A stretch of DNA of 64,000 bases, from NCBI RefSeq assembly GCF_900115615.1, contig NZ_FOXB01000008.1, forward strand, positions 1 through 64,000, written 5' to 3'. Shown in pieces: positions 41,601-60,985 of this stretch; position 1 is the first letter of the stretch; each line of letters begins with the position of its first letter. Below the pieces are notes generated by a model. It worked only from the letters and a program-made list of their open reading frames with translations. It was not told the DNA's origin and did not search any database. The position numbers and the translations under genes were made by a program. The DNA comes from Hydrogenimonas thermophila. Its GTDB lineage: Bacteria; Campylobacterota; Campylobacteria; Campylobacterales; Hydrogenimonadaceae.

Positions 41601-43088
41601 TTAAAATCCGCTTGCCTGAACGTAATTTGTTATGAATTCTAACATAGGTTCAACAGCCAATACTGCAAAAACTGTTAAAACTACAGAAAATCCAATGATT
41701 GTTTGTAACGGCTTAGAAGCATTTCTCATATAGACCGTCCCATCATTTTCTGCTGGATCTTTCAAGAACATATAAACAATTAGTTTTAAATAGTAGTATG
41801 CTGAAATTGCACTGTTAATTGCCATAATAAGAGCTAAAATAATATAGTCACTATTAACTGCTGCACTCATAATATATAGTTTTCCCCAGAAAAGTGAAAA
41901 AGGAGGCACACCAGCTAAAGAGAGCATAAAAAGAGCCATAACTACAGCACCTACAGGCATAATCTGGATCATACCAGAAAATTTCTCATATGGATGGTCA
42001 AAACGTTCATGCCAAATAGAGGCTTTATGACGAGAGACCCATAGCATTGCAAATGCACCAAGGTTTGTAAATAAAAAGAGTATCCAGTAAAGGAAAAGTG
42101 CACTGTTAGCTTGAGTAGTTCCTATCATAATAGCAGCCATTACAAAACCGGCATGCGAAATTGAACTGAATGCAAGCATTCGTTTAACATCTTTTTGAAC
42201 AAGAGCCATAATATTTGCAAGAGTCATTGTAACAACTACAGCTGCATAAAGGATATCTCTAACCCATACAACATCAAGATGGATCATAAACTCAAACAGT
42301 CGCATAGCAACTACAAAGCCAGCAATTTTAGGTACAACAGACATATAACCTGCTAAAGCTGCATTTGCACCTTCATAAACATCTGGTGTCCATGTATGGA
42401 ATGGAACCATAGATAGTTTAAATCCAATTGCAGCAATGATAAATGATGCAGCAACAAGAAGAACAGTCATATTTACAAAATTACTGTCTACAAGAACTTC
42501 TGCAATTTTATAAATTTCAACACTGCCGGTAAGAGCATAAAAGAGCATTGAACCCATAACATAGAAGCCTGCTGCCAATGCACCCATAACAAAGTACTTG
42601 ATTGCTGCTTCAAAAGATTTTTCACGGTTATGAAGCGCAATAAGTGTATATAGTGACAAACTTGCAGTCTCAAGACCAACAAAGATTAAAATAAGGTTGT
42701 CGCTTGCAACCATAAACTGAAAACCAGCAACCATGAAAAGGAAGAGTGCAAAAAACTCAGGGTAACTATACTCATGGAAACGCTTGGAGGTTAATGCAAG
42801 CGGTATAAAAAGCATTGATGCTGCCAAGATGATGATCTGTGAGAGTACAGCAAGACCATCAATCAACATAATATCAAAAAATCCACGCTCTCCGATCTGC
42901 TGACCAAATACAACACCTAAATCTACAAATATAATAAGGACACTCAACATTACATAGAGTGTCTTGTCTAGATCTTTTTTAATTAGATCTATAACCAAAA
43001 TGCCGAGTCCACCGGCAATCGCTACAAGCATAGGAGCAAGTGTTCCTAAGTTCAGCGATTCCAAACTTACTGAAATTGGCTCTAACAT
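41601..43088 (-). CDS. nuoN: Complex I antiporter-like subunit NuoN
   Basis: A 495-residue polytopic membrane subunit of the proton-pumping arm. Around 14 membrane helices; conserved [17 protein letters not shown] and the [18 protein letters not shown] motif. It is the last nuo gene, sharing one base with the nuoM stop. pflA follows after a 31-bp gap. Confidence 0.96.
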
Positions 43089-44614
43089 TATTTCGCCTCC
43101 CTTTCGATTACCGTTGGTTTAATAACTTCTTTTGCTTCAGCGGTAATCGCTTTTTTATGCATAAATGATACCAGTGCCTCTACACTTGTATTGATTGGTT
43201 CTAAAACAGGTTTTGGATAGACACCAAGCCAAACAGTTACAAGAACCAGTGTCCAAAGTGCCATACTCTCTTTTCCATTTAAATCTTTTAAATCTTTATT
43301 TTTCTCATTAACAACTTCACCGAAGAATGACTTTTTATAAAGAGTAAGCATATAGACTGCACCAAGAATGATACTAGTACCTGCTAAAATTGTCATAGTA
43401 TGTGATACTTGATAAAAACCTGCCAAGCTTAGAAACTCACCAACAAAGCTCATTGTAAGAGGAAGACCAACAGATGCCATAACCATAATACCCATGATTG
43501 TTGCATACTGAGGCATTACTTTTGCAAGTCCGCCAAACTCACTCATAAGTTTAGTATGTCGTCTGTCATAGATGACTCCAACAAGCATAAAGAGAGCACC
43601 ACTAACAACACCGTGGCTTAGCATAAAAAATACTGAACCAGAAATTCCTTCAGGGTTCATTGCAAAAGTACCAAGAACAATAACACCCATGTGTGAAATA
43701 GAACTATATGCAACAACCTGTTTCATATCTTCCTGAGCATAAGCAACCATCGCCGTGTAGATGATCATAATTAGAGAAAGAACTGCAACAGGATAGATCA
43801 TATAGACAGATGCATCCGGGAACATTGGAAGAGGCAGACGAACAAGACCATATGTACCCATCTTAAGCAATACTGCTGCAAGAATTACTGAACCAATAGT
43901 TGGTGCTTGACCGTGTGCATACGGAAGCCAAGTATGGAATGGGAACATAGGTACCTTAATAGCAAGACCAATGAAAAATGCAATGAATAGCCAGAACTGA
44001 TAATTCTCAGGCAGAATCAATCTGTGCCACTCTGTAATAGAGAAGCTCCATACACCAGTTGCTTGATGATAAAGATATGCCATAACAAGCATACCTACAA
44101 GCATGATTAATGAACCTGCAAATGTATAGAGGAAAAACTTGATAGCTGCATATATTCTAAGATTTCCACCCCATGCACCAATGATATATAGCATTGGAAC
44201 AAGCGAAAGCTCCCAGAATACATAGAACAAGATAGCATCAAGAGAAACAAAGACACCAACCATTGTCATCTCTAAGAATAGTAAAGAGATGATCATATTT
44301 TTAATATCTTTCTCTATAGACAATGCTATCAAACCGATAGTTGTAATAAATGTCGAAAGAATGACAATGAAAAGAGAGATGCCGTCTACACCCAAATAGT
44401 AACTGATTCCAAAACTAGGGATCAACGGAACAAGTTCTACAAACTGCATTCCTGCATAACTACTGTCAAAACTGAACCATAACCACAGTGAGAGCAGGAA
44501 TTCAATTGCAGCCACTGAGATACCATATGCCCGGATCGACTCTTTAGAGACGACAAAACCAAGCAAGCCGGCAATTGCCGGAAAGAAAACCAAGACTGAT
44601 AAAATGTGATCCAT
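43088..44614 (-). CDS. nuoM: Complex I antiporter-like subunit NuoM
   Basis: A 508-residue membrane subunit. The conserved [20 protein letters not shown] segment (key Glu) and [20 protein letters not shown] identify it, with a Lys-containing helix around [20 protein letters not shown]. It lies 9 bp after nuoL. Confidence 0.97.
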
Positions 44615-44623
44615 ACCTACTCC

Positions 44624-46480
44624 TTAACGCACGGGACTGTAAAAGATGGCTGCAAGTAGCAGAATGAGCAGACCCACTCCCATCCAGCGCAGCATATTTG
44701 AAAGGTTACCGCTTTGAACAACACGAGAAACCATACCAGATTTGTAAATAGATGTTGCAATAAAGTCAACGGTTGCATCGACAATCTTAAGGTCCATATC
44801 TTTCCAGAAGATTCTTGACAACTCTGCATACGGTTTGCAGATATAATCGTTATAAATCTGTGGAATATAGTACTGGTTGAATAGCAACTTATAAATAAAT
44901 GTATCTTCCCAGCTTTTGCTGAAGCCGCCTTTGCTATATTTATAGACTGCAACTGCAATACCGCTAATTGCAATACCCAAAGTCACAGCAACTAAAGTCC
45001 AGAATGTTCCTGTTGAAACGTGATACTCTTCAATTGGAAGTACATACGAAACCATATGCAAGAAACTATGTTCAAAGAAACCTGCAATAACCGCAAGAAC
45101 AGCTAAAGGTGCCATAGCCCACAGCATAAATCTGTACGCTTCATGCGGATGGAAACCAAAGATTTTATAACGCTCTTCACCAAAGAATACAAGCATAACA
45201 AGACGGAAGCTATAGAATGCAGTCAATCCTGCAGTAACCCACAATACTGTCCACAATACATAGTGATCTGTTGAGAATGCTGCTTCTAAAATCTTATCTT
45301 TTGAGAAGAATCCAGCAAATGGATAGATACCTGCAAGTGCCAAAGAAGCTAGTGTCATCAAAATCATTGTCCACTTCATCTTTTTAGCAAGACCACCCAT
45401 TTTGAAGATATCAAGCTCATCATCCATAGCGTGCATAACATTACCTGCACCAAGGAATAGAAGTGCTTTAAAGAAAGCGTGTGTCATAAGGTGGAAAAGT
45501 GCAATCCAGTAGGCACCAAGACCAGCAGCAACAAACATGTAACCAAGCTGTGAAAGAGTTGAGTATGCAATAATGCGTTTCAAGTCACGGTTAACAAGAG
45601 CCATTGATGCAGCAAATAGAGCAACAAATGCACCTAAACTTGCTACAAAAAGGCTTACTTCTGGTACTTCACCATAAAGAGGGTTTGCACGAATAACAAG
45701 ATAAACACCTGCTGTAACCATTGTTGCAGCGTGGATAAGTGCAGAAACAGGTGTTGGACCCTCCATCGCATCTGCAAGCCAAGTGTGTAGTGGGAACTGT
45801 GCAGATTTACCCATAGCACCGATAAACAAGAATGCAGTAACCATGATCAACAGTGTATGATCTTTATCTGCAACTTGTGCAAAAACTTCATCATACTGAA
45901 GGCTTCCAAAGTTCCAGTAAACAAGGAAGATACCAATAAGCATACCAAGGTCAGCAATTCTGTTCATAATAAATGCTTCATTTGCTGCCCAAGACGCGCT
46001 CTCTTTATGGTACCAGAACCCGATCAATGCCCAAGAACAGAGACCAACACCTTCCCAACCGATGAATAGACCGGCAAAGTTGTCACTCATAACTAGTACC
46101 ATCATAGAGAAAACAAAAGCTGAAAGCCATGCGAAGAATCTGTTAAAAGATTTGTCGTGGCTCATATACCCCATTGAGTAGACATGAACTACTGTAGATA
46201 CTGTCGTAACAACAAACATCATAGTAGCAGTTACCTGGTCAACCAAAAACCCAAATGGAATATAAAGCCCACCAGCATGGATCCAGTCCATCATTTTTAC
46301 ATGTACTACTTCTCCATGCATAACATGAAGTAATAGAGCAACAGAACTAACCCAAGAGACAAACAGCAGCGTTGATGTCGCAATACCGGTAACTAAAGTT
46401 TTCGGACGATTTGCGAAGAGTGCTGCAAAGAGTGATCCGACAAGCGGAGCAAATAGTGCTATATAAAGATACTTTTCCAT
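44624..46480 (-). CDS. nuoL: Complex I antiporter-like subunit NuoL
   Basis: A 618-residue membrane subunit at the distal end of the pump arm. Conserved GLFIGWEGVGLCSWALIGFW, SAQFPLHTWLADAMEGPTPV and NRDLKRIIAYSTLSQLGYM are present; a C-terminal extension with the long lateral helix and a last membrane span follows. Gap of 11 bp after nuoK. Confidence 0.97.
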   Translation of the reverse strand: MEKYLYIALFAPLVGSLFAALFANRPKTLVTGIATSTLLFVSWVSSVALLLHVMHGEVVHVKMMDWIHAGGLYIPFGFLVDQVTATMMFVVTTVSTVVHVYSMGYMSHDKSFNRFFAWLSAFVFSMMVLVMSDNFAGLFIGWEGVGLCSWALIGFWYHKESASWAANEAFIMNRIADLGMLIGIFLVYWNFGSLQYDEVFAQVADKDHTLLIMVTAFLFIGAMGKSAQFPLHTWLADAMEGPTPVSALIHAATMVTAGVYLVIRANPLYGEVPEVSLFVASLGAFVALFAASMALVNRDLKRIIAYSTLSQLGYMFVAAGLGAYWIALFHLMTHAFFKALLFLGAGNVMHAMDDELDIFKMGGLAKKMKWTMILMTLASLALAGIYPFAGFFSKDKILEAAFSTDHYVLWTVLWVTAGLTAFYSFRLVMLVFFGEERYKIFGFHPHEAYRFMLWAMAPLAVLAVIAGFFEHSFLHMVSYVLPIEEYHVSTGTFWTLVAVTLGIAISGIAVAVYKYSKGGFSKSWEDTFIYKLLFNQYYIPQIYNDYICKPYAELSRIFWKDMDLKIVDATVDFIATSIYKSGMVSRVVQSGNLSNMLRWMGVGLLILLLAAIFYSPVR

Positions 46481-46491
46481 TGACGCTCCCT

Positions 46492-46794
46492 TTACCCGTG
46501 CATTGATTGCATAGAATCAATATCAAGCGTACCACGTCGCTTGTACCATACAATCATAAGACCTAAACCGACAGCAACTTCACTTGCCGCAACAGCAACA
46601 ATGAAGAATGCAAACATTTGACCGGTCAGATCGCCATAAAATTTTGAGATTGCCGCAAATCCTATGTTTACTGCATTAAGCAGTATCTCTGTTGAAAATA
46701 GCAGCAAAAGCAGATTTTTTCTACGATATACACCTACCAAACCTATACAAAAGAGTATGGCTGAAAGGATCAGATAGTGGCTGAGTGTTATCAT
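46492..46794 (-). CDS. nuoK: Complex I subunit NuoK
   Basis: A 100-residue, three-helix membrane subunit. Conserved GLVGVYRRKNLLLLLFSTEILLNAVN-type sequence with the channel Glu, and AASEVAVGLGLMI. It overlaps nuoJ by 4 bp. Confidence 0.96.
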   Translation of the reverse strand: MITLSHYLILSAILFCIGLVGVYRRKNLLLLLFSTEILLNAVNIGFAAISKFYGDLTGQMFAFFIVAVAASEVAVGLGLMIVWYKRRGTLDIDSMQSMHG

Positions 46795-47348
46795 TTGGCA
46801 CCCTTTTCTTGGAATTCATCTTCTACTTTTAGTGTAAGACTCTCATCCATCTTTTTGCCTGCAAGAACAATACCTGCGATCATAGCTACAAGAAGCATAA
46901 CTGCAGCTACTTCAAATGGAACAAGATATTTTGTAAAGAGGACAATACCTACTGCTTGAGGGTTTTCAACACCTTCAACCATAGGGTATAGTGCTGTAAT
47001 ATGGTCAGATACAATTGGTGCCACAAGTGCAATAACCATTAAAAGTGCAGCCATACCACTTAAAAGAAATACAAGTTTAGGAGCTTTAATCTCCTCTTTG
47101 ACTTCACGTGTTGTATCAAAAAACATCATACCAAAGGCATAAAGTGCCATTACCGCACCGGTATAGACAATTATCTGAACAACACCGAGAAAGTCGGCAT
47201 CGAGCAGAAAGAAAAATCCGGAAATCATAATCATCCCTGCAGCCAATGCACTCATAGAGTAGAGTGCATTCTTACTCAATACGGTAATACTGAACATTAC
47301 AATTGTCACCGCACTGAAGAGATAAAATGCTATTGTTTCAAACATCAT
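46791..47348 (-). CDS. nuoJ: Complex I subunit NuoJ
   Basis: A 185-residue membrane subunit with five helices. Conserved ALYSMSALAAGMIMISGFFF and QIIVYTGAVMALYAFGMMFF (the pi-bulge helix region). The C-terminus is hydrophilic and charged. Seven bp after nuoI. Confidence 0.95.
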   Translation of the reverse strand: MMFETIAFYLFSAVTIVMFSITVLSKNALYSMSALAAGMIMISGFFFLLDADFLGVVQIIVYTGAVMALYAFGMMFFDTTREVKEEIKAPKLVFLLSGMAALLMVIALVAPIVSDHITALYPMVEGVENPQAVGIVLFTKYLVPFEVAAVMLLVAMIAGIVLAGKKMDESLTLKVEDEFQEKGAK

Positions 47349-47355
47349 CCAATCC

Positions 47356-47970
47356 TTAATACGCCAATGGCGTTTTCTTTATGCGCTCATCCGCATTCGG
47401 GCTGACAGCACCAAATCCAGGGAACTCATCCTGCTTACCCTCTTTTAGGAAATCAAGAGGTGTGAGCATGTCATCTTTAAGCACGAAGTGCGCACGCTGT
47501 TCACTTGCATTCTCATATCGTGGTCCGTGAACAATTGCAAGTTCAGGACATACCTCTGCACAGTAACCGCAGAAGATACAGCGACCAAGGTTAATAGTAT
47601 ATTCAGTAACCTCTTTACGCTGATTTTCATCATATCTAGTATCCATTCGAATACAGTTTGCAATACAGATCTTTTCACACAATCCACAACCAATACATCT
47701 TTCATAACCACTCTCAAGCAGTCTATAGAGTTTATGAACAGCTCGGTATCGTGGAGAGATAGGTAGTTTCTCTTTTGGATACTGAACAGTGTGGATGTTG
47801 AACTTCACCATTTCACGGAAAACAACCCATAAACCTACAAAAAGCTCACCTTTGAATGTTCGCTTTACAACCTGTTTAAATTTTTCTAAAGGTTTTACAG
47901 GCGGTTTGTCAACTGGAATATACGTATAGTTTTGCATAACATTTCTATCTTTGAATTGTTCAAGACTCAT
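47356..47970 (-). CDS. nuoI: Complex I 2x[4Fe-4S] subunit NuoI
   Basis: Carries clusters N6a and N6b next to the quinone site. Start at ATG 47970 (AAGGAG upstream) gives 204 residues. Two CxxCxxCxxxC motifs: CIGCGLCEKIC and CIFCGYCAEVC, each followed by a fourth Cys or CP. A longer frame from 48021 would run through the upstream hairpins and is rejected. Confidence 0.96.
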   Translation of the reverse strand: MSLEQFKDRNVMQNYTYIPVDKPPVKPLEKFKQVVKRTFKGELFVGLWVVFREMVKFNIHTVQYPKEKLPISPRYRAVHKLYRLLESGYERCIGCGLCEKICIANCIRMDTRYDENQRKEVTEYTINLGRCIFCGYCAEVCPELAIVHGPRYENASEQRAHFVLKDDMLTPLDFLKEGKQDEFPGFGAVSPNADERIKKTPLAY

Positions 47971-48086: not shown

Positions 48087-49082
48087 TTACATCATCAATA
48101 CGATGCCGGTAACGACAACGTTAATTACAGCGATTGGCATCAATACTTTCCAACACAACCACATCAACTGATCTGGTCTAATGTGAGGCCATGCAGCACG
48201 TGTCCAAAGGAAGAAAAAGAATAGGAACGATACTTTAAGTACAATAGCCAATCCTCCAGGAATGAATCCCCAGTCATTAAAGCCGCCTAAGAAGATCAAA
48301 CTTGCCAAGAATGCAAGAGTGATCATGTTTGCATACTCACCGATGAAGAACATACCCCATCTCATACCCGAATACTCTGTCGCATAACCAGAAACGATCT
48401 CTGCTTCATGCTCAAGAAGGTCAAATGGTGTACGGTTTGTCTCTGCAAATCCTGCAATTAAGAAAAGAACAAATGCAACTGGCTGTGTCCATACGATCCA
48501 GTCACTGAAACCACCTGATTGATAGTTATTGATATCTATCAGTGAAAGCGATCCGACAAGCATAAGTGGAGCCAAGATGCTAAGACCTGTTACAACTTCA
48601 TAACTAAGTAGCTGAATAGCAGTACGAGCTGCACCAAGAAGTCCCCATTTGTTTGCACTTGCCATACCTGCAAGAAGCGGTGCAAAAAGTCCGCTTGCCA
48701 TAACACCAAGAACAAACAGAACACCAACATTAATATCAGCAATGATTGGGTGTACAGTCACTCCAAAGAGTTCAAACTCAGGAAATAGAGGAACTGCAGC
48801 TAATGCAATAAAAGCCGTAGCCGCTCCAATTACAGGAGCAATCATAAAGATTGGCTTTACAGAGTTTTGAGGGACAATATCCTCTTTTGTAAAGAGTTTG
48901 ATACCATCCGCCAATACTTGAAGCAAACCATATGGACCAACATGCATTGGACCAAGTCTTCTTTGCATAAATGCAAGTACCTTACGCTCAAGATATGTTC
49001 CAAATCCTGCAAGAGCTGAGAATAGCCCCAGCACAACAAGGATTTTGATAATCGTTGCGATTACAAATTCAGTTAATGTCAT
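48087..49082 (-). CDS. nuoH: Complex I subunit NuoH
   Basis: The 331-residue membrane subunit that forms the quinone chamber. Conserved ERKVLAFMQRRLGPMHVGPYG, SLSLI, ETNRTPFDLLEHEAEIVSGY and RPDQLMWLCWKVLMP. Three bp after the second nuoG. Confidence 0.97.
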   Translation of the reverse strand: MTLTEFVIATIIKILVVLGLFSALAGFGTYLERKVLAFMQRRLGPMHVGPYGLLQVLADGIKLFTKEDIVPQNSVKPIFMIAPVIGAATAFIALAAVPLFPEFELFGVTVHPIIADINVGVLFVLGVMASGLFAPLLAGMASANKWGLLGAARTAIQLLSYEVVTGLSILAPLMLVGSLSLIDINNYQSGGFSDWIVWTQPVAFVLFLIAGFAETNRTPFDLLEHEAEIVSGYATEYSGMRWGMFFIGEYANMITLAFLASLIFLGGFNDWGFIPGGLAIVLKVSFLFFFFLWTRAAWPHIRPDQLMWLCWKVLMPIAVINVVVTGIVLMM

Positions 49083-49085
49083 GGC

Positions 49086-51569
49086 TTACACCTTTTCTAC
49101 GTTTACGTTTTGGAATCGGTTAGATGCAAAGAGTTTGTCAGCATCAATACCAGGATCAAAATCCGGTACCATAACAATCTCTCCACCGATAAATTTATCG
49201 ATTTCAACCTCTAATTCCACCGTTTCACCAGATATTGTCACTTTAACTCTATCACCAGCACTTAGACCCAGCTTCTCACACTTTTCAGCTGAAACATAAA
49301 GCTTAGCGTCAGTTGCTATTTCATGAGCTTTTTTCGTAAATTCATTGAATTGCAAAACAGGATTACAGCGATATGCAATCTCTCCATTTAATGCATTTGA
49401 TTCATCAATTTTATCAACTTTTACCTTGACAGAACGAACCTTTTTATCTTCTAAAAGGTATCCTCGTACCTCTTCTCCACTGTTTGTATAGTGGTTTGGA
49501 AGGTCATCAAAGTTAAGTGTTTTAAATCCTTTAGACTCAGGCAATGCTGCCGTATAGTCTACTGTTAACTCTGCTTCCAATCCTAATGCATTTGCTAAAT
49601 CATTTAGAGTGTAGCCTTTATAAGGAAGAGCAACATTTGTAGGAACAACTCGCTTATCTGCAATTGTCATTGTGCCCTCTTGCTGGTTAATTGATGGCAT
49701 GTCAAGGTCACCGTTACCACTGGCGCTAAGTACAAAATCACCTTTTGCATTGTAACCAATGACATACTCTCCAGCTTTTTCATCAAGATCACAAATCAAG
49801 CTTACTCCAAGAGTATTTGTTTTACTTGGCAAGATAAGCACTTTAAAGTTTGTACACTGTTCAATTAAACCGGCAAGTTTTGCAAGATTCTCTGCTTTAG
49901 GATGGTTAATTAAATCTTCACCAAGAATAATAGAGAATTTCTCTTTTTTAGCAAGCATTTTAACCATCTTATCAGAGAAATCTTCAGGTGCTCCAAGAAT
50001 GTCAAGAAGTCCGTTAAGATCTACTTCTACCTCTTTTTTCACTTTCTTAGGAACCATTTTGGTTACCTCTTCAGTAACCTCTTTCTCTTCACCAGTCTCT
50101 TCGTCTTTCACTTTTTTAGTTACTTTTTCGGTTACTTTCTCTTTTATTGTCTCTTCAACTGTCTTTTTGCCTTTCTTATGGAACTTAGACAGATAGTTTA
50201 CAACCTCTTTAGGAAGTTTCTCTTTATCTCCAAAGAGATCCAAAATAAGATAGAGTGCCGCCTCTTCCAAACCAGGCTTATGGTTAATGCAGATAAGGTT
50301 TTTGCCAAATCCTTCAATAACTGGGTCTTTAACAGGATGGAAATAAAGCCCTGCACCCTTGTTCATTTTGATTGCATTGTTAAATGCATATCTTGCACGA
50401 GGGTTGTCACTTTTCAATTGTGCACCAATACTTACAACAAAGTCACTGTTATGAACATCACTCAAATCACCACTGTAAAGAGAGTTACCAGTTACTTTTG
50501 AAAATGTTTTTAAGAAGTTATGGTAACGTCTTGCATCTTCATTTATCAATTTATAACCATACTTCTCTTTAAGTCTATTAAGGATCAATGCCTCTTCATT
50601 TGTAATGACTGAAGAGAAACGGATGGTATCAGCTTTCTTAAATGCCTCTAAAGCTTTTTGGAAAGCTTCTTCATCTTTACCTTCTGTTCTGTTTTCAAAA
50701 TCATAACCAAATCGTCCAGCACCACAAAGAGAGACATAGTTCCACTCATTTTTAACTCTGTAGATTTTTGGTTCCGGATTGTCAATACTTGTATGCTTGA
50801 CATCATAATATAGTTGACAACCTGCACTACAGTGAGCACAAGATGCTGGAATAGATGTTAATTCCCAAGCATTTGATGTATACTGAAAATCGCTGCTTAC
50901 TAAAGCACCGACTGGACATACTGCTATACACTCGCCACAATCTGTACACTCAAGTGTATCACCGCTTGTTGGTCCAATCAGTGATTTATTAAGCTTGTTC
51001 CACATTGCATAAGCATCTTTAGGCATCTCATTTTTAAGCTCTTTGTCAAGAGGGTCACCTCCTCTTGGTACTGTTTTAAGCGCTGAATCACCAATCATAT
51101 CTTTACAAACAGTTACACAGCGCTCACAAACAATACAAAGAGCTGGATCATAGTGTATGAGTCCCCAGTCCTGCGCTACACGATGGGTATCTTTAATAGC
51201 ATAGTGCTGTTCATCAACACCCATCTCAAGTGTATAGTTTTGAAGTTCACACTCACCTGACTGATCGCACACACCACACTCTAGTGGATGGTTTACATCA
51301 TAAACCTCCATAATAGCACGGCGCTCTTTTGCAATATTTTCAGTAAGAGTGGTGATTTCCATTCCATCTTTTGCTTTTGCATTACAAGCATAGACTTGCT
51401 TTCCGTCAGCCTCTACAAGACAAATTCGGCAAGCAAGAGTAGGACTACACCGTGTAAGGTAGCAGATAGCAGGAATGAAAATACCGTTAGCACGTGCGAT
51501 ATTGAGAATATATTCACCCTCTTTCGCTTTACACTCTTTCCCGTCTATTTTGATTGTTATATCACTCAT
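49086..51569 (-). CDS. nuoG: Complex I Fe-S subunit NuoG, second copy
   Basis: An 827-residue peripheral-arm subunit. N-terminal [2Fe-2S] domain (C36, C47, C50, C62), the His/Cys motif HPLECGVCDQSGEC, two ferredoxin-type clusters (CIVCERCVTVC; CTDCGECIAVC), then an N7-type cluster (CAHCSAGC ... CGAGRFGYDF) and a molybdopterin-oxidoreductase-like domain without cofactor ligands. A Lys/Glu-rich insert (about 470-516, with KEKVTEKVTKKV) is absent from the other NuoG. The two copies are adjacent and clearly paralogous. Confidence 0.93.
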   Translation of the reverse strand: MSDITIKIDGKECKAKEGEYILNIARANGIFIPAICYLTRCSPTLACRICLVEADGKQVYACNAKAKDGMEITTLTENIAKERRAIMEVYDVNHPLECGVCDQSGECELQNYTLEMGVDEQHYAIKDTHRVAQDWGLIHYDPALCIVCERCVTVCKDMIGDSALKTVPRGGDPLDKELKNEMPKDAYAMWNKLNKSLIGPTSGDTLECTDCGECIAVCPVGALVSSDFQYTSNAWELTSIPASCAHCSAGCQLYYDVKHTSIDNPEPKIYRVKNEWNYVSLCGAGRFGYDFENRTEGKDEEAFQKALEAFKKADTIRFSSVITNEEALILNRLKEKYGYKLINEDARRYHNFLKTFSKVTGNSLYSGDLSDVHNSDFVVSIGAQLKSDNPRARYAFNNAIKMNKGAGLYFHPVKDPVIEGFGKNLICINHKPGLEEAALYLILDLFGDKEKLPKEVVNYLSKFHKKGKKTVEETIKEKVTEKVTKKVKDEETGEEKEVTEEVTKMVPKKVKKEVEVDLNGLLDILGAPEDFSDKMVKMLAKKEKFSIILGEDLINHPKAENLAKLAGLIEQCTNFKVLILPSKTNTLGVSLICDLDEKAGEYVIGYNAKGDFVLSASGNGDLDMPSINQQEGTMTIADKRVVPTNVALPYKGYTLNDLANALGLEAELTVDYTAALPESKGFKTLNFDDLPNHYTNSGEEVRGYLLEDKKVRSVKVKVDKIDESNALNGEIAYRCNPVLQFNEFTKKAHEIATDAKLYVSAEKCEKLGLSAGDRVKVTISGETVELEVEIDKFIGGEIVMVPDFDPGIDADKLFASNRFQNVNVEKV

Positions 51570-51574
51570 TTTGA

Positions 51575-53836
51575 TTATCCCACTTCTTCAATTTTGCTTT
51601 GACTATACCGATAGATTGAAGATAGCAAATCTTCTCTCAACCCAAGGTCAAAGGTTGGATTGAGTGCAATTGTCCCTTTTAAATCTGGGTCTATTTTAAA
51701 CACTCTCTCCATCTCTACACCCTCTACATTCAACCTGACTCGCACACCCTCTTTCAGCTTTGCAGCCATTGCAAATTGTGCAGAACCATAAAGTATTGGC
51801 TCCTCTTTGCTTAGCTGAGATGCTTTATATGTCTGTGGACCAAACTGAAGTACCGGGTCACAACGGTAAAGAATGGCTCCGTTAAACTCTGGAAGGTCAG
51901 CTACCTCTTCAAGAGTTGAGTCTACTGAATGCTTCATACGTTTAAGTTCATACCCACGTACTTCACCATCTTGGTTGGTAAAATAGTATGGAATATCATC
52001 AAAACGAACTGCTTCAAAGCCTCTTTCTTGAGGAAGTTTTTCTGTATAATCAATCGTATATCTTGCTTCAACACCAAGTGCATTAGCCAAGTCGTTTAGC
52101 ACATAACCATTGAAAGGAAGAGCTACATTTGTTGGCACTACACGTTTGTTTAGAGTAGTAAATGTACCCTCCTGCTGATTAAGTGCTGGCATATCAAGAT
52201 CACCATCTCCCAAAGAGCTTAAAACAAAATCACCAGGTGCGTTGTATCCGATGACATACTCTCCTGCCTTTTCATCAAGGTCACATATAAGAGCAACACC
52301 CAAAGAGTTTGTTTTAGGAGCTACAGGTAGTACACTCATACCGCCAAAACGCTCAAAAAGTGCTGCAAAACGTGCTATCTGTTCAGCTCTTGAATGATTT
52401 ATGCAATCTTCCCCAATGACTACTGCTATACGTTTACAGCGTTTTAAAGTTTTTTGAATCTCTTCAAGTTCCTCTTCACCGACATTGCTTTCAGCACTTA
52501 GATATCCATCATCTAAATCATTTAAATAATTCTCAATCTTTTTAATATCTACCTTGCCTTCAAGCATTGTCTTGGCAAGCATTGCAATAACACCCTCTTC
52601 TGTTCCAACCTCATATTTGACAAACTGGGTTACAACATTTTGCATCTGCTTATCTTCCATTGGATGCATATAGATAACACGGGCGTTATGGCGTTTTGAT
52701 GCCATTGTTATGTGATAACGAACAGCTGGATTATCAGTAAGGATGCGTGAACCTATAACAATAACTCCATCAGCATCAGCAAGTGATTCCAACGATCCAT
52801 TAAATAGAGTCTTGCCGCTCATTGTCGCATAACTCTCAAGGAACTTTTGATACTTTCTTGCATCTTCATTGAGAAGTTTGTAACCATACTTCTCTTTAAG
52901 TTTTTGCAAGATCATCGCCTCTTCATTTGTTATGCGACTTGTAAAGCGGATTGTGTCAGCCTTTTTAAAGCTTTCAATTGCTTTATTGAAAGCCTCTTTA
53001 TCCTTACCTTCAACACGATTTTCAAAGTCAAATCCAAAGCGTCCGGCACCACATAGAGTAGAAAACTCAAACTCATTGGTTACACGATAAAGCTTTTTCT
53101 CACTTGCTTCACAAGCTCCAGCATACTTTCTCTCATAATATAGTGAACATCCTGCACTACAATGAGCACAGCTTGCCGGAATCTTTTCAAGCTCCCAAGC
53201 ATTTGCAGAATACTGAAAGTTTGTACTTGTCAAAGCACCAACAGGACATACAGCTACACACTCTCCACAGTTGGTACACTCAAGCTCTTCTGTTCCCTTA
53301 GGCTGAATTTTAGAACCATATCCACCATAATGAATCTCAATAGCATCATCACCAATTACTTCATTACATACGTGTACACACTTTTCACACAAAATACAAA
53401 GAGATTCATCATAACCAATGAAATCCCATTTTTTAAGATCGCGCTTATGCTCTTTTGCTGAAAACTCTTGAGTGTCAACACCAAACTCAAGTGTTTTGTT
53501 TTGCAAGTCACAAGCACCACTTTTATCACAGACACCACACTCTAAAGGATGGTTAACATCATATAGCTTCATAATATTTTGTCGATGGCTGAAGAGTTCT
53601 GCTGAATTAGTACGAACTTCCATACCATCTAAAGCAGGAGCCTGACAACTTAAAATAAAACCATCTGCTCCTTCAACTTCAACAACACAAAGTCGGCATG
53701 AAGCTATAGGCTTAACTTTAGTCAAATAACACATTGTAGGAATATAGAGTCCTGCACGGCGTGCTGCCTGCAGAATCGTATCTCCCTTTTTAGCTTCAAT
53801 TCTCTGTCCGTCAATTGTTAGTGTAATCATGGACAC
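51575..53836 (-). CDS. nuoG: Complex I Fe-S subunit NuoG, first copy
   Basis: A 753-residue NuoG paralogue with the same cluster set: N-terminal [2Fe-2S], HPLECGVCDKSGAC, CILCEKCVHVC, CTNCGECVAVC, and the N7-type CAHCSAGC with CGAGRFGFDF. The C-terminal part shares long near-identical stretches with its neighbour (for example DLDEKAGEYVIGYNA). It lacks the Lys/Glu-rich insert. Tandem duplication is the simplest origin; whether both are in one complex or alternate is open. Confidence 0.93.
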   Translation of the reverse strand: MSMITLTIDGQRIEAKKGDTILQAARRAGLYIPTMCYLTKVKPIASCRLCVVEVEGADGFILSCQAPALDGMEVRTNSAELFSHRQNIMKLYDVNHPLECGVCDKSGACDLQNKTLEFGVDTQEFSAKEHKRDLKKWDFIGYDESLCILCEKCVHVCNEVIGDDAIEIHYGGYGSKIQPKGTEELECTNCGECVAVCPVGALTSTNFQYSANAWELEKIPASCAHCSAGCSLYYERKYAGACEASEKKLYRVTNEFEFSTLCGAGRFGFDFENRVEGKDKEAFNKAIESFKKADTIRFTSRITNEEAMILQKLKEKYGYKLLNEDARKYQKFLESYATMSGKTLFNGSLESLADADGVIVIGSRILTDNPAVRYHITMASKRHNARVIYMHPMEDKQMQNVVTQFVKYEVGTEEGVIAMLAKTMLEGKVDIKKIENYLNDLDDGYLSAESNVGEEELEEIQKTLKRCKRIAVVIGEDCINHSRAEQIARFAALFERFGGMSVLPVAPKTNSLGVALICDLDEKAGEYVIGYNAPGDFVLSSLGDGDLDMPALNQQEGTFTTLNKRVVPTNVALPFNGYVLNDLANALGVEARYTIDYTEKLPQERGFEAVRFDDIPYYFTNQDGEVRGYELKRMKHSVDSTLEEVADLPEFNGAILYRCDPVLQFGPQTYKASQLSKEEPILYGSAQFAMAAKLKEGVRVRLNVEGVEMERVFKIDPDLKGTIALNPTFDLGLREDLLSSIYRYSQSKIEEVG

Positions 53837-53840
53837 ATCC

Positions 53841-55844
53841 TTATACCGCTGTCATTGCGATGTAGTAGCATCGCATACAGCGTTCAGCTTCAGCTATAGC
53901 TTCTTCCTGTGTAAAGCCAAGATTGACTTCACGGTTATTGTCACGTCTCTCTTCAACTGACAACTTTTCACTCACTTGTCTTGGTAATCCAGGCAACCAA
54001 CCTGTAACTTTCTCATTTTTATTGTAAACACGCAATTTTCTAAGATGATCTTCCATTATCTCTTCATCTGTTAGTGTAATTTCACCCGTTCTTACATAAC
54101 GTGAAATGACTGATGCTGCACGTTTTGCCTGACCTACAGCATTAACGATTGTCATTGGTCCATACTCACAGTCACCTGCTGCAAAAAGCCCTTTTCGGCT
54201 TGTCATATAGTCACGTCCATTTGTTTTGAGTGTTCCCCAGCTTGTAAGCTCTAGCTCCCACTCTTCAGGAAGAAGACTCAAATCAGCAGACTGACTTACC
54301 GCAGGGATCAAATAATCACACTCAATTATGAAATCAGCACCCTCTATCTTTACAAGTTTCGGTCGTCCGCCGTCTGGATCTGGTACAAGCTCAAAACGGT
54401 TACACTTAAGAGCTTTAAGACGACCATTTTCATCTTCAAGAATCTCTTCTACAGCAGAGTGGAATATAAACTCAACACCCTCTTCTACAGCTTCGTGATA
54501 CTCTTCATATGTTGTATTTCGGATGATTGTCTTCTCATCCCTTCTATAGAGCATTATAACCTTCTCTGCATTGGCTCGAACAGAACATCTTACAACGTCC
54601 ATAGATGTAAATCCACCACCAACACAGACAACAGTTTTTCCTGTCAAATCAACCGGTTTTCCAATACCATATTTGACATAGAGGTTAATCTCATCCAAAA
54701 AGCTGATAGCCCCCCAGTAACCCGGCATATCTTCACGCTCATTTTTTGCACGAACTTTTTTAGAAAGGCGTGTACCAAATGAAAGGAGTGTTGCGTCATA
54801 CTCTTTATCAAACTTTCTGAGCATATCTGCATCTACTCTTGTATTCATTATGAAGTTGGTACCTACACTCTTTGCAAGCTCGATATCTTTATTATATTTA
54901 TCAACAGGCATTCGATACTCTGGAACACCCACTGCAACTTCACCACCAAGAACAGGAAGCTCTTCATAAACATCACACTGAATACCTTCAAGACCCAAGT
55001 AATAAGCTGCTGTCAAGCCGGCAGGACCTGCACCGACAATTGCAACTTTTTTATCTATTTTCTCTTTTGCAGGCTCTTTTGGATGAAGCCACTCAAGACC
55101 GTGATCAGTCTCATAATCTGCACCTAAACGCTTCAACTCCATAATCGAAATCGGCTCATCAAGGTTTGCACGTCGACACTCATCTTCACAAGGGTGTGGA
55201 CATACACGGCCGCAAGTATGTGCTAGTGGCATTGTCTTACGTGTTGCCTGAAGTGAGTCATCATAACGCAAGTCACGTACACCTTCAATATATGCAGGAA
55301 TGTCTACATGCGTAGGACAAGCATCCATACAAGGTGCTGTAACTTTTGCAATGTAATTAATCTCATCAAGATGATAATCTTTGCTCGGTTTTTTGTTTTC
55401 AATAAGGTCCATAAATGTATCGTGATAATGCTCGAGCATATCTAAAAGCGGTTTTGGAACTGTTCGTCCAATTTCACATTTAGAGGTCTCCATCATTGTT
55501 CTAGAAACCTCTTTTAAATGCTCAAGGTCACTTACTTCACCTTCACCACGAGCAATTTTATCCATCAAGTCATATAAAATTCGTCCACCCCATCGTCCAG
55601 GTGCACAACGTCCACAAGCTTCAGAATATTGCTGATAAGTTGCCGCATACTCTGTTCCAAGCCGGACTACATCAACCTCTTCATCGAAAATTGCAAATCC
55701 ATCCCAGCCTATGAATGCTTTTGCATTTCTATCTGCTTCATACTGCTCTGGCAACTTATATTCCGACTCAACCCATTCAGATTCCGGCTTGCCACGGTTA
55801 TCAATAAACTCACCGCGCCAGGTCGAAAAAACTACTCGAGCCAC
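53841..55844 (-). CDS. Fusion of NuoF C-terminal Fe-S domain with GltD-like flavoprotein
   Basis: A 667-residue protein in the nuoF place. Residues about 60-150 match the NuoF C-terminal domain, but the N3 cluster motif C-x2-C-x2-C reads C77, C80, G83: the third cysteine is glycine; C123 is kept. Residues 165-650 resemble the NADPH-oxidoreductase part of GltD/NfnB: CMDAC and CGRVCPHPCEDEC Fe-S motifs (C172, C176, C211, C215, C219, C223), FAD site GAGPAGL (271-277), second nucleotide site GGGFTSMD (409-416), and a C-terminal RCMRC. The FMN/NADH domain of NuoF is missing. By position it is the electron-input subunit; Campylobacter and Helicobacter have other proteins here (Cj1574c, HP1265). Confidence 0.8.
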   Translation of the reverse strand: MARVVFSTWRGEFIDNRGKPESEWVESEYKLPEQYEADRNAKAFIGWDGFAIFDEEVDVVRLGTEYAATYQQYSEACGRCAPGRWGGRILYDLMDKIARGEGEVSDLEHLKEVSRTMMETSKCEIGRTVPKPLLDMLEHYHDTFMDLIENKKPSKDYHLDEINYIAKVTAPCMDACPTHVDIPAYIEGVRDLRYDDSLQATRKTMPLAHTCGRVCPHPCEDECRRANLDEPISIMELKRLGADYETDHGLEWLHPKEPAKEKIDKKVAIVGAGPAGLTAAYYLGLEGIQCDVYEELPVLGGEVAVGVPEYRMPVDKYNKDIELAKSVGTNFIMNTRVDADMLRKFDKEYDATLLSFGTRLSKKVRAKNEREDMPGYWGAISFLDEINLYVKYGIGKPVDLTGKTVVCVGGGFTSMDVVRCSVRANAEKVIMLYRRDEKTIIRNTTYEEYHEAVEEGVEFIFHSAVEEILEDENGRLKALKCNRFELVPDPDGGRPKLVKIEGADFIIECDYLIPAVSQSADLSLLPEEWELELTSWGTLKTNGRDYMTSRKGLFAAGDCEYGPMTIVNAVGQAKRAASVISRYVRTGEITLTDEEIMEDHLRKLRVYNKNEKVTGWLPGLPRQVSEKLSVEERRDNNREVNLGFTQEEAIAEAERCMRCYYIAMTAV

Positions 55845-56074
55845 TATTTTTTCCTTCTCACTACAATGGTCCAGTCAGCTTCATTGAACTTGAGCGAGTT
55901 CAATAACTCATGTCCAGCCTCTTTGACCATATCAGCTGTTTTTTGAATAGGGCTGAAGTCACCTATCTCAAATAGGAAAATTGCCACTTCACCAGGTTTT
56001 GTTCCATTATCTAACAATTCCATCATACGATCATAGAAATCATCGTGTAAATGGCGTAAATCGTAACGTACCAT
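55844..56074 (-). CDS. Small NuoE-position subunit (HP1264 / Cj1575c-like)
   Basis: 76 residues from ATG 56074, which has GGGAG upstream and avoids overlapping nuoD. It opens MVRYDLRHLHDDFYDRMMEL and has no cysteines, so it cannot hold the NuoE [2Fe-2S] cluster. Small proteins of this size occupy the NuoE place in Helicobacter and Campylobacter and are needed for complex I there. It shares one base with the next gene. Confidence 0.78.
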   Translation of the reverse strand: MVRYDLRHLHDDFYDRMMELLDNGTKPGEVAIFLFEIGDFSPIQKTADMVKEAGHELLNSLKFNEADWTIVVRRKK

Positions 56075-56084
56075 TATCTCCCCC

Positions 56085-57311
56085 TTATCTGTCGATTTCG
56101 CCGAAGACGATATTTGTACTACCAATAATCGTAACAATATCCGCAATATAAGTTCCAGGCAGTAAGTCTTGTAAAATTCCGCAGTGCCAGAAACTTGGTG
56201 CTCTCATTTTCAATCGATATGGATATGGATCTCCTTGAGAGTTGATGTAGAACCCAAGCTCACCTTTTGGACTCTCCGTAGGCACATAAACTTCACCTAC
56301 CGGTGGACGCATTCCTTGAGTTACAAGCACAAAGTGCTGCATTAAAGAGTAGTTTTGCGTCATAATATCTTCTTTAGGAGCCGAAATATATTGTGGCGCA
56401 TGTGCCATTAACTCTGGTGGAGTATCATCATACATTGAGATCAATTGCTGAATAATGCGAACAGACTGACGCATCTCTTCCATATAAAGCTTGTAACGTC
56501 CATAGCTGTCACAAGCATCAGTTACAGGAATATCAAATTCAAGCTCATCGTAAAGCTCATATGGCTCCTCTTTACGGATGTCATACTCTATGCCTGAACC
56601 ACGAAGCATAATTCCTGTACATCCCCAGCTTTTAGCCATTTCTGGTGGAACTACACCGACACCTTCAAGACGCATACGCCAGATGCGGTTTTCTGTCAAA
56701 AGATCTTCATAATCTTTAATGTTTTTAGGAAGCTCATTAACAAATTTTGCCAATGCACCAAGCCATCCTTCAGGAAGATCAAGTGGAACACCACCAATAC
56801 GCACAGCTGAATGTGTCAAACGTGCACCACAGTAATCTTCCATTAAGTCCATAGCAAATTCACGCTCTCTAAAGCAGTATAGGAACACACTCATAGCACC
56901 AACGTCAAGTGCGTGTGTTGCCAACCAGAAGAGATGTGAAATGATACGGTTAAGCTCCAAAAGAATTGTACGAATAACTTTTGCACGTCTTGGAACTTCA
57001 AGACCGATCAACTTCTCAACAGCTAAAGCAAAACCATAGTTGTTTGATGTTGCAGCGATGTAGTCCATACGGTCAGTTGTTGGCAAGAACTCATTGTAGA
57101 TCATGTTCTCTGCCATCTTCTCCATACCACGGTGGAGATATCCAATATCCGGAACCGCACGAACCACCTGCTCACCATCAAGCTCAAGAATTAGACGGAG
57201 CTGTCCGTGTGCTGAAGGGTGCTGCGGCCCGAAGTTGATAACCATATGGTTATCTTCTCGTTCAAACTCCAGGTTTTCAAAAAACGGTCGTAATTTATTG
57301 GTTTGTTGCAT
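56085..57311 (-). CDS. nuoD: Complex I 49-kDa subunit NuoD
   Basis: Start at ATG 57311 (AAGGGG upstream, after the nuoC stop) gives 408 residues. [13 protein letters not shown]-like opening ([14 protein letters not shown]), [12 protein letters not shown], and the C-terminal [18 protein letters not shown] are hallmark quinone-site regions. Like other NuoD it lacks the hydrogenase cysteines. Confidence 0.97.
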
Positions 57312-57321
57312 CCGCGTCCCC

Positions 57322-58122
57322 TTACTTTCTCTTATCAAGCACTTTTGGCGCTTTGTTGAATTTTTCAATCATAAAGACACCCTCTTCTTCTTGATACTGA
57401 ACAGGTGTTGCTGCACCTTCATCAACTGGAGCACCTTTTGGTACTTCATGACCAAGACGGGCAAAACGTTCAGTATCATAACGGTCAACTCGAGCAGGAT
57501 CTCGGTTTTCTGGTCCAATGATATCACGTGCCTCTTTACCGAAAATCTTATCAACTTCATACCACTGAGCAAACTCATCACCTTCAAGGGGATAAGTTTT
57601 ACGAAGTGGATGACCTTCCCAATCATCTGGCATAATAAGTCGTTTAAGATATGGATGGTTGTTAACTTTAACACCCATTAAATCCCACATCTCACGCTCT
57701 GCCCAGTCAGCACTTCTATAAAGAGGATTTACACTTTCAATTGCCTGAAACTCATCTACAAAACATTTCACACGAATACGTTTTGCGGTACTAAGGTTAA
57801 GAATTTGATAGAAAATCTCAAAACCACCACGCTGTGCAAGGAAATCGACTGCACTCATCTCAGAGAGCATTTCATAGCCGCGTTCCTCTTTTAAAGTACG
57901 AAGTACTTCAACATTGTTTTCAGGATTAATGTAAATTACAAGCTGATCACGCTGGATATAAGCTTTAAGTACTTCACATTTTGCTTTTACAGCTGCCAAA
58001 TCTTCAGCATAAACGCCTTCGCTTGGTACAGGCTCTTCTGGTACACGAGGTGCTACCCAGAAGCGGTCTGTATAGTAGGCTTTTTTCTGTACATTATCTT
58101 TGGGAATATATGGTCTCATCAT
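57322..58122 (-). CDS. nuoC: Complex I 30-kDa subunit NuoC
   Basis: A 266-residue subunit with the signature [14 protein letters not shown] and [11 protein letters not shown]. An extra N-terminal region of about 40 residues and a C-terminal tail make it longer than the minimal fold. It overlaps nuoB by 4 bp. Confidence 0.95.
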
Positions 58123-58628
58123 ACCAACCTTTTAGGCTTTTGAGATTTGTTAGCAGACTCACGTCGAATCTTCTGTTGAAGAAGCATTACCGCATACTGC
58201 AGTGTCTCTGGACGTGGTGCACAACCAGGAAGATAAAGATCAACCGGAATTACACGGTCACACCCTTGAACAGTTGCATATGTATTGAACATACCTCCTG
58301 TATTGGCACAACTTCCCATAGAGATAACCCATTTAGGCTCTGTCATCTGATCATAAAGACGGCGAATGAACTCAGCATGTTTTTTTGTAAGAGTTCCAGC
58401 AACAATCATTACATCTGCTTGACGAGGTGATGCTCTAAAAATTGTACCAAAACGGTCAAAGTCATATCGGCTTGCACCTGATGCCATCATTTCGATTGCA
58501 CAGCATGCCAATCCATAAGTTAATGCCCAAACTGAATTACTTCGTCCCCAGTTTAGGATCTTATCAACAGTAGTCAATGCAACAGGCAGACCGCCGCTTT
58601 GTGTGTAGTTTACTTGATGCTGTGCCAT
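58119..58628 (-). CDS. nuoB: Complex I subunit NuoB (cluster N2)
   Basis: A 169-residue subunit with the N2 cluster ligands: tandem C42/C43 in LACCAIE, C107 in MGSCANTGG and C136 in LPGCAPRPE. It overlaps nuoA by 19 bp. Confidence 0.97.
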
Positions 58629-58999
58629 TCAAGTGCTCCTTTCTTCCATGCATAAATAAATCCTATTGCTAGCAATAGAATAAATAGAATCATTTCAGCA
58701 AAACCGAACCATCCTAAGACTTTAAAGTCGATTGCCCATGGAAACATAAAGATAATTTCCACATCAAAAAGTATGAAAAGAAGGGCAAACAGATAGAACT
58801 GTGCCGAAATTGTATTTGGCTGTTTTGTTACTTCAGGCCCGCACTCATAAATAGTGAGTTTGAGCTTCTCAGTATCCAGCCTTGCCAGTTTGCGACTAAC
58901 AAACCTTGCAGCAAACAGTGTTGCGCTGAATGCACCAAATGTGATCAGCAGCAGCATAAAGGCACCGAAATACGGATGATCCACTACCATATGTGTCAT
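58610..58999 (-). CDS. nuoA: Complex I subunit NuoA
   Basis: A 129-residue, three-helix membrane subunit with the conserved [31 protein letters not shown] region. First gene of the nuo operon. AAGGGG precedes ATG 58999. Confidence 0.96.
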
Positions 59000-59344: not shown

Positions 59345-59890
59345 CTATTTATTGGCTTCAGCTTGCTGCTTAGCTTCCGCCTCTTTTTTAACTTTAGCTT
59401 CTTGCTGTTTTTTAAGCTTCTTAAGCCTTTTATGTTCAGCTAACTTTTCACGACTTTCACGAGCACGTTTTTCAAACTCATCCCACTTTTTATCGAAATC
59501 TTTTGCCTCTTCTATACGATTAACGAAGTATCCAAGTTTTTTGTCTTTTGGTAATGTTTCATTTCGTCCAAGAGGTGGTAATCTTGTTTCTGACTGAACC
59601 AGACACCCCTCGTCAGCTTTTGGACAAGCATCAACACATGCATGGCAATAGATGCAAAGATAAGGGTTATAACTATACTCGCGTTTATTATTCTCGACAT
59701 CAACAATCTCAAAAAGAATTGCACCTGGAGGACAAATATCTTCACATTTGTCACAAAAAATACATAACTCCTCATCATAAAGAATCGTCCCCTTGTACCC
59801 CTTTGGCTCTGGTGACGGCGTATGAGGGTAACCAATTGTTTCCGGTTTTTTAGTTAGGTTTTTCAATGACTCTATAAACATCTTTACCAT
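59345..59890 (-). CDS. echF: Ech-type hydrogenase ferredoxin-like subunit (EchF)
   Basis: A 181-residue 2x[4Fe-4S] protein, related to NuoI and HycF, that passes electrons between ferredoxin and the hydrogenase small subunit. Cluster motifs CIFCDKCEDIC (C43-C53) and CIYCHACVDAC (C79-C89). The last 50 residues are a Lys/Ala/Glu-rich helical tail, which is unusual for the family. AAGG precedes ATG 59890. Confidence 0.85.
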   Translation of the reverse strand: MVKMFIESLKNLTKKPETIGYPHTPSPEPKGYKGTILYDEELCIFCDKCEDICPPGAILFEIVDVENNKREYSYNPYLCIYCHACVDACPKADEGCLVQSETRLPPLGRNETLPKDKKLGYFVNRIEEAKDFDKKWDEFEKRARESREKLAEHKRLKKLKKQQEAKVKKEAEAKQQAEANK

Positions 59891-59899
59891 GGCATCACC

Positions 59900-60985
59900 T
59901 TATCGTGCAGTACATGAAAGACATGGATCAAAGCTAAGAACAATAGCCTGCGCATCTGAGTATTTTGAACCAACAAACAGCTCTTTAAGCACAGGAACAT
60001 TTGCATAGGTTGGTACCCTTACTCTCACACGCTCCATTACCTTTGTTCCATTTCCCTTAACATAGTAGAAACACTCACCTCTTGGTGCTTCAACGCGAAT
60101 AAATGTTTCACCTTTTGGACGTCCTTTAACCTTCACTTTAATATCACCTTCACCAAGTCCGTCAAGAACATTTAAACAGATCTCAATAGAGTTAAGCACC
60201 TCGTCAAATCGCACCATATTTCTTGCCCAGACATCACCTTCTGTCCGTAACTGCATCTTATAACCAAGCTCTTCATAAGGCAAGAAATCAAACTCTGCTC
60301 TTGCATCTGTTTTTAGTCCACTTGCTCTAGCAATAGGACCGGCAGTGTTATATTTTTTTGCCATCTCATATGTAACTACACCCACTCCTTTAGTCTTTAG
60401 TCCTAAAGTGTAGTCAGTCTCAAAAAACTCCATTAACTTCAAGACATGATCACGAAGTTCTTTGAGTCGAGTGCGGATCATCTTTTCATTTTCAACAGTT
60501 AAATCTCTACTGACACCACCGATTGTATAGTAGTCATACTGTACTCGGTTACCTGTAATAATCTCAAGAATTTCTGTCGAAATTTCTCGATATTTTACTG
60601 TTTGCATAAAGAGATTTTCATATCCGCAAACCTCTGCAACATGACCATTTGCCAACATATGTGAGTGGATACGATCTAACTCTACAACTAAAGTACGCAA
60701 GTAGTCGATCTTTTTATTTGTCTCAACACCAAGCAGTTTTTCAACTCCGTGTATATAAGCCGATGCGTGTGTAATAGAGCAAAAACCACAAACCCGTGCT
60801 AGTAGATACTGGACATTATTGAAGTTAAACTTTGTAACAGCAGCTTGCTCGATCCCTCTGTGAACATACCCTACATCAACGGCTACATCGGTAATAATCT
60901 CATTTTCTGTTTGAAAAACAAAGCTTACCGGCTCAGGAATAGCAATATGCTGAGAACCAAATACAACCTTAATCTTATTTCCCAT
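59900..60985 (-). CDS. echE: Group 4 [NiFe]-hydrogenase large subunit (EchE)
   Basis: The 361-residue catalytic subunit, related to NuoD but with all four NiFe cysteines: C66 and C69 in RVCGFCSITHA, C355 and C358 in DPCLSC. The chain ends CTAR, right where maturation proteases cut related subunits such as HycE, so no C-terminal extension exists. AAAGGAG supports ATG 60985, which overlaps echD by 11 bp. By family it produces or oxidises H2 with ferredoxin, coupled to ion movement. Confidence 0.9.
   Translation of the reverse strand: MGNKIKVVFGSQHIAIPEPVSFVFQTENEIITDVAVDVGYVHRGIEQAAVTKFNFNNVQYLLARVCGFCSITHASAYIHGVEKLLGVETNKKIDYLRTLVVELDRIHSHMLANGHVAEVCGYENLFMQTVKYREISTEILEIITGNRVQYDYYTIGGVSRDLTVENEKMIRTRLKELRDHVLKLMEFFETDYTLGLKTKGVGVVTYEMAKKYNTAGPIARASGLKTDARAEFDFLPYEELGYKMQLRTEGDVWARNMVRFDEVLNSIEICLNVLDGLGEGDIKVKVKGRPKGETFIRVEAPRGECFYYVKGNGTKVMERVRVRVPTYANVPVLKELFVGSKYSDAQAIVLSFDPCLSCTAR

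Follow-up and report, generated by a model that had tools for sequence, protein, structure and literature searches.

Tandem NuoG paralogues accompany a NuoF/GltD fusion in complex I of Campylobacterales and may form an extended input arm

Introduction

The usual description of complex I has a single NuoG and, as its head, a NuoEF module that oxidises NADH. In the nuoXY-type complex I of Campylobacter, Helicobacter, and Sulfurospirillum, the genes are ordered nuoABCD–E-like–x–G–HIJKLMN, and flavodoxin/ferredoxin-linked activity has been reported for enzymes of this type (PMC6682613). NUO-2 of Nitrospina gracilis and Kuenenia is a complex I variant with an extra [4Fe-4S] cluster in NuoG and an altered NuoF, and it has been proposed to serve reverse electron flow (PMC3578206). 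In the Stn transhydrogenase (StnABC) of Sporomusa ovata and in Nso, which are soluble and have no membrane arm, a GltD-like NADPH domain feeds a NuoG-like domain.

Here we describe a nuo operon in a 64,000-nucleotide stretch of Hydrogenimonas thermophila DNA (the window). It contains two NuoG paralogues, G1 and G2, behind a fusion of NuoF and GltD parts (F/GltD). The locus shares its general gene order, the PF16514 NuoE-like subunit, and an orthologue of G2 with the nuoXY-type enzymes, but these have no F/GltD fusion and their middle gene encodes a truncated G1 of 235-350 aa. Like canonical complex I (E. coli NuoEFG, Thermus Nqo1-3), it has the NuoG fold, the N1b, N4, N5, and N7 ligands, NuoI, NuoB, and the membrane arm; unlike canonical complex I, it has two NuoG subunits with an extra [4Fe-4S] motif each and a GltD-like head, and it lacks the NuoF FMN/NADH domain, N1a, and a complete N3 motif. 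Stn and Nso also differ from the locus in that GltD is fused to NuoG rather than to NuoF, there is one NuoG, and an FMN-bearing NuoF-like subunit is retained. In NUO-2, which resembles the locus in its extra NuoG cluster and altered NuoF, NuoF2 has added ferredoxin-like clusters, there is one NuoG, and a GltD fusion is not described. We found no discussion of the tandem NuoG pair, or of the origin of the G1 remnants described below, in the literature searched, and an earlier mention in older papers is possible.

Results

The window contained a full nuo operon on the minus strand, which ran from nuoA to nuoN (58999 to 41601) in the order nuoABCD–E-like–F/GltD–G1–G2–HIJKLMN. The genes were as follows.

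58610..58999, minus strand, nuoA
58119..58628, minus strand, nuoB
57322..58122, minus strand, nuoC
56085..57368, minus strand, nuoD (start codon uncertain)
55844..56074, minus strand, NuoE-like small subunit, PF16514 (start inferred from the Pfam match)
53841..55844, minus strand, NuoF/GltD fusion, 667 aa
51575..53836, minus strand, G1, first NuoG paralogue, 753 aa, GTG start
49086..51569, minus strand, G2, second NuoG paralogue, 827 aa, ATG start
48087..49082, minus strand, nuoH
47356..47970, minus strand, nuoI, two 4Fe-4S motifs (start set by homology)
46791..47348, minus strand, nuoJ
46492..46794, minus strand, nuoK
44624..46480, minus strand, nuoL
43088..44614, minus strand, nuoM
41601..43088, minus strand, nuoN

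The spacers across F/GltD, G1, G2, and nuoH were 4, 5, and 3 bp, the 5-bp spacer being the one between G1 and G2. A PF16514 gene was located between nuoD and G1 and canonical nuoEF was absent, which is the arrangement of the epsilonproteobacterial (nuoX/PF16514) type. Directly upstream of nuoA, a group-4 [NiFe]-hydrogenase (Ech-Hyf-like) cluster occupied 59345-63937 on the minus strand and ran on to the end of the window. It included a large subunit (59900-60985, motifs CGFC and DPCLSC), a small subunit (61339-61818), NuoC-, NuoH-, and antiporter-like subunits, and a two-[4Fe-4S] protein. Just downstream of nuoN, a 786-aa TPR-repeat protein with a DUF7494 domain was encoded on the same strand (39191-41551).

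An earlier note on this DNA had placed two tandem NuoG paralogues at 49086-53836, and these coordinates proved exact. NF006305 has a curated NuoG cut-off of 591 bits, which G1 (892.7 bits) and G2 (1211.7 bits) both exceeded. PF13510 and PF10588, which represent the N-terminal [2Fe-2S] domain and the His-Cys3 N5 region, were found in both. The molybdopterin-like lobe was recognised through PF00384 in G1 and through a full-length NF006305 match in G2. In G1, the Fe-S half covered about residues 1-290, the C-terminal molybdopterin-like lobe covered about residues 278-753, and residues 351-500 and 650-750 were G1-specific stretches. The best structural matches of an AlphaFold model of G1 were NuoG and formate dehydrogenase chains; the C-terminal lobe was modelled confidently (mostly >90 from residue 278), the Fe-S half was poor, and the model was uninformative on contacts. 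We found no third full NuoG of the same family in the genome.

The full Fe-S ligand sets, including N7, that the note had reported were present in each paralogue. In G1, the ligands were C36/C47/C50/C64 for N1b, H96/C100/C103/C109 for N5, C147/C150/C153 and C197 for N4, and C223/C226/C230/C262 for N7. In G2, they were C36/C47/C50/C62 for N1b, H94/C98/C101/C107 for N5, C145/C148/C151 and C218 for N4, and C244/C247/C251/C282 for N7. The N1b, N5, and N4 ligands were 100% conserved in an alignment of 63 G1 and 84 G2 sequences. Conservation of the N7 ligands was 89% in G1 (n = 63) and 64% in G2 (n = 84); they were missing from 30 of the 84 G2 sequences (L031, L034, L044, L050, and others), in which the main-path ligands were invariant. 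This loss of N7 from G2 is in line with the position of N7 off the main path. Each paralogue also had a four-Cys [4Fe-4S] motif that the note had not mentioned, located in a ferredoxin-like domain (C157/187/190/193 in G1 and C155/208/211/214 in G2). The motif resembles that of HydA/HoxU-type relatives, in keeping with the NCBIfam matches.

Values of dN/dS against the nearest relative were 0.033 for G1 and 0.034 for G2, which indicated strong purifying selection, so neither paralogue was decaying, as the note had supposed. The closest named relatives of G1 were in Hydrogenimonas MAGs (76-92% identity). The NF006305 scores and conserved ligands ruled out a chance resemblance or a pseudogene. A recent or decaying duplication was ruled out by the dN/dS values and by the Fe-S halves, which separated cleanly into two paralogue groups over the order.

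The F/GltD fusion retained only the N3 domain of NuoF (PF10589, residues 74-145), and a Pfam search did not find the NuoF FMN/NADH-binding domain in it. The C-terminal part was a GltD-like FAD/NAD(P)H domain (PF14691 and PF07992) that carried the motifs GxGPAG and GGGxTSMD...YRR and eight invariant Cys residues (n = 61 aligned), such that the FAD/NADPH motifs and two [4Fe-4S] ligand sets were present. The nearest chains to this domain were of the StnC type and DpdA/NfnL, and by sequence the structures most closely related to the fusion were 8oh5, 9bov, and 9n5u (Stn/Nso). In the N3-type site, CGRCxPG and C123 were found in 61/61 sequences (invariant Cys 77, 80, and 123), and the third Cys of the N3 motif was replaced by Gly relative to HydB in every one of the 61 fusions. 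The motif was thus incomplete, with three of four Cys residues, and the link from GltD to G1 would differ from a standard N3. There was no Cys in the NuoE-like PF16514 protein and hence no N1a cluster. With the FMN/NADH domain, a full N3, and N1a all missing, the input differs from an ordinary NADH module. NADPH is the probable nucleotide of the fusion, judging from its GltD family membership and its YRR motif, and the GltD head suggests that complex I here is NAD(P)H-linked rather than flavodoxin/ferredoxin-linked.

We searched 120 genomes of the order, including MAGs, with NF006305, extracted the nuo loci, and scored gene order by script. Seven cassettes that were incomplete or broken by contig ends (L048, L058, L159, L170, L171, L172, and L178) were excluded from the counts, which left 82 whole cassettes. 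Sixty of these contained the F/GltD fusion together with a full-length G1. The other 22 had no fusion, and their G1 was a remnant of 235-483 aa without the Fe-S half. Exceptions to the co-occurrence of the fusion and the G1 Fe-S half numbered 0/82. A Helicobacter-family genome outside the sample (L193) was concordant, with the fusion and a 799-aa G1. G1 or its remnant was present in 82/82 whole cassettes; the premise of the earlier note, a requirement for one NuoG in each complex I, was therefore inapt for the operons of this order. The main-path clusters of G2 were retained in all genomes, and G2 was orthologous to the sole complete NuoG of the remnant-type genomes. In a phylum-wide sample of Campylobacterota, the fusion was listed only in Campylobacterales.

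Both traits were inferred to change jointly six times on the best tree, for which NuoD, H, I, L, M, and N were used (76 rows). Four of these joint changes were on well supported branches, and all four pairs were concordant; a sign test on them was not significant (p = 0.125) because there were too few changes. The strength of the co-occurrence is the total lack of exceptions rather than the sign test.

Three loci (L081, L082, and L190) had F/GltD with a single NuoG composed of a G1 front and a G2 tail, the junction being inside a near-identical repeat. They were not treated as counter-examples because they probably reflect repeat collapse during assembly or a deletion. In some Arcobacteraceae-type MAGs (L116, L117, L118, and L138), the nuo operon stopped after G1 and G2 was at a separate site. 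A loss of G2 in these genomes was ruled out by finding the gene there. ATP-citrate lyase, a reverse-TCA marker that implies ferredoxin demand, was found in 50 of 60 fusion-bearing genomes and in 4 of 22 others (raw Fisher p = 8.5e-8); after correction for kinship, about two of four independent pairs agreed. Autotrophy as the driver of the fusion was thus weak after this correction and is a hint only.

The remnants are truncated G1 proteins by homology. A remnant profile matched G1 with E = 1.7e-84 and 33% identity and G2 with E = 1.8e-39 and 17% identity, where the E-values of these script-run profile searches relate to small databases. The signature LDxGYLSAESxxxEEE (LDxGYLSAESNVGEEE) was found in G1 and the remnants and in 0/84 G2 sequences, and a variant, GYLASE, was read by eye in three remnants. 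Short remnants aligned to about residues 346-507 and 640-750 of G1, with the Fe-S half missing. An intermediate form of 466 aa (L050) covered residues 277-751 of G1. Truncated forms occurred in complete chromosomes and are therefore not assembly breaks. For six of seven remnants tested, there was no credible Pfam family, and NCBIfam gave weak NuoG matches. The remnants were located between the NuoE-like gene and nuoG, and from this position we tentatively take them to be NuoY (HP1265, Cj1574c). In Campylobacterota, genes at that place are termed nuoY and are said to take the place of nuoF (PMC6682613).

Gene conversion between G1 and G2 is confined to two mid/C-terminal core segments. Two clean paralogue groups, with one label change, were seen for residues 1-240 (Fe-S half) and for the G1-specific stretches 351-500 and 650-750; there were five label changes in 251-350 and eight in 505-640. 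In 9 of 57 genomes (examples are L026-L030, L142, L143, and L166), several of which were complete chromosomes, codons 505-610 of the genome's own G1 and G2 were 97-100% identical in DNA, with flanks of 55-65% identity. None of the 57 genomes had >90% identity between the Fe-S halves. Conversion in shared core segments and never in the Fe-S half indicated that G1 and G2 were kept distinct there and in the G1-specific parts. Segment 505-640 was also the part missing from the short remnants. The near-identical segment is a candidate cause of collapsed short-read assemblies in MAGs.

Discussion

Because the G1 Fe-S half tracks the GltD fusion while the main path of G2 stays intact, serial wiring is the simplest reading. 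We put the probability at roughly 60% that these operons encode a single complex I whose input arm is extended and in which electrons pass from NADP(H) through the GltD flavoprotein to G1, G2, and NuoI. The earlier note had offered a longer wire among its possibilities; this option, tied to the GltD-like subunit, is favoured by the strict co-occurrence in 82/82, the six joint changes, and the constant main path of G2. A dimeric input arm with the GltD-like subunit, which the note had also offered, may apply in place of a serial one. We infer the serial order from the pattern of gene loss rather than from geometry.

The flavoprotein, with its NuoF-derived N3 domain, would bind NAD(P)H (NADPH being the likeliest form) and exchange electrons with the Fe-S half of G1 through FAD, two [4Fe-4S] clusters, and then the N3-type site. 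G1 would hand electrons to G2, whose Fe-S half would occupy the ordinary NuoG position and feed NuoI, then NuoB, and then quinone. The reverse path, powered by the proton-motive force, would make NADPH, and autotrophs may run it in this direction. The Fe-S half of G1 would serve the GltD head only, and its C-terminal lobe would act as a scaffold fixing the input module onto G2 and the NuoE-like subunit. In some lineages the GltD head would have been lost, probably with a switch to flavodoxin or ferredoxin, and there the G1 Fe-S half would have disappeared and a trimmed C-terminal lobe been retained. In the solved Stn complex, electrons from the GltD FAD exit through the cluster chain of the NuoG-like domain, and the FdhF-like lobe is required for assembly and not for electron flow (PMC10482914). 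By analogy, the role of this lobe fits a scaffold role for the C-terminal lobe of G1, which is kept without the Fe-S half.

Alternatively, G1 and G2 might lie side by side in a parallel or branched arm, with G1 serving NADP(H) through GltD, G2 accepting ferredoxin or flavodoxin directly, and the two ports meeting at NuoI or at the extra cluster of G2. Remnant-type genomes use G2 alone, and flavodoxin or ferredoxin use has been reported for those studied experimentally (PMC6682613, PMC4585668); moreover, the extra [4Fe-4S] motif of G2 is invariant (n = 84) in both genome types, so a direct G2 port could predate the loss of GltD. We nevertheless consider a branched arm unlikely. Where one complete NuoG feeds the quinone module it is always G2, so electrons from G1 must pass G2 or a rebuilt NuoI contact, and no second contact site was evident in this analysis. 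It is very improbable that two complex types are formed, an option also raised in the earlier note, with G1 and G2 as alternative subunits of an NADP(H)-linked and a ferredoxin-linked complex I in the same cell. The complete main-path ligand set in each paralogue and the split operon of some Arcobacteraceae, with G2 elsewhere, would suit such an arrangement, but there was a single nuo set in the 60 cassettes, G1 and G2 share an operon with a 5-bp gap, and recent conversion was seen in 9/57 genomes only and never in the Fe-S half, which argues that the two are kept different and are not interchangeable. In addition, the C-terminal lobe of G1 stays beside G2 without any Fe-S half in genomes with one complete NuoG, and it cannot serve as an alternative NuoG there.

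GltD-like and NuoG-like parts are known from bifurcating enzymes, and R311 of the fusion, the equivalent of NfnL R201, is conserved. The GltD FAD might then split NADPH electrons to ferredoxin and quinone, or the reverse, with the doubled NuoG providing high- and low-potential branches, and the frequency of ATP-citrate lyase in fusion-bearing genomes would agree with this. Bifurcation is improbable, however, given that the FMN NuoF-like and [2Fe-2S] NuoE-like subunits of the Stn/HydBC-type module are both absent, and with them the FMN domain responsible for bifurcation in HydBC/StnAB, and that the lyase association is weak after kinship correction. R311 is undiagnostic because the same arginine occurs in DpdA and in StnC, whose FAD reportedly does not bifurcate (PMC10482914). 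A related and similarly speculative idea is a two-port input module, possibly bi- or confurcating, in which the GltD head would handle NADP(H) and the NuoG clusters ferredoxin, both being exchanged with quinone and the proton-motive force, and of which the Campylobacter/Helicobacter complex I would be a stripped derivative. If so, autotrophs would obtain from a single machine both the NADPH and the reduced ferredoxin that their reverse TCA cycle requires.

The double-NuoG complex I is a variant of a known machine and not a local oddity. If the serial arrangement is correct, a bacterial order whose widespread members oxidise sulfur and hydrogen equips complex I with a second NuoG subunit and an NADP(H)-type flavoprotein, which would be a natural lengthened electron wire. 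The unexplained subunit in the NuoF position of Campylobacter- and Helicobacter-type complex I would then derive from a NuoG paralogue of which the scaffold lobe was kept and the Fe-S half lost.
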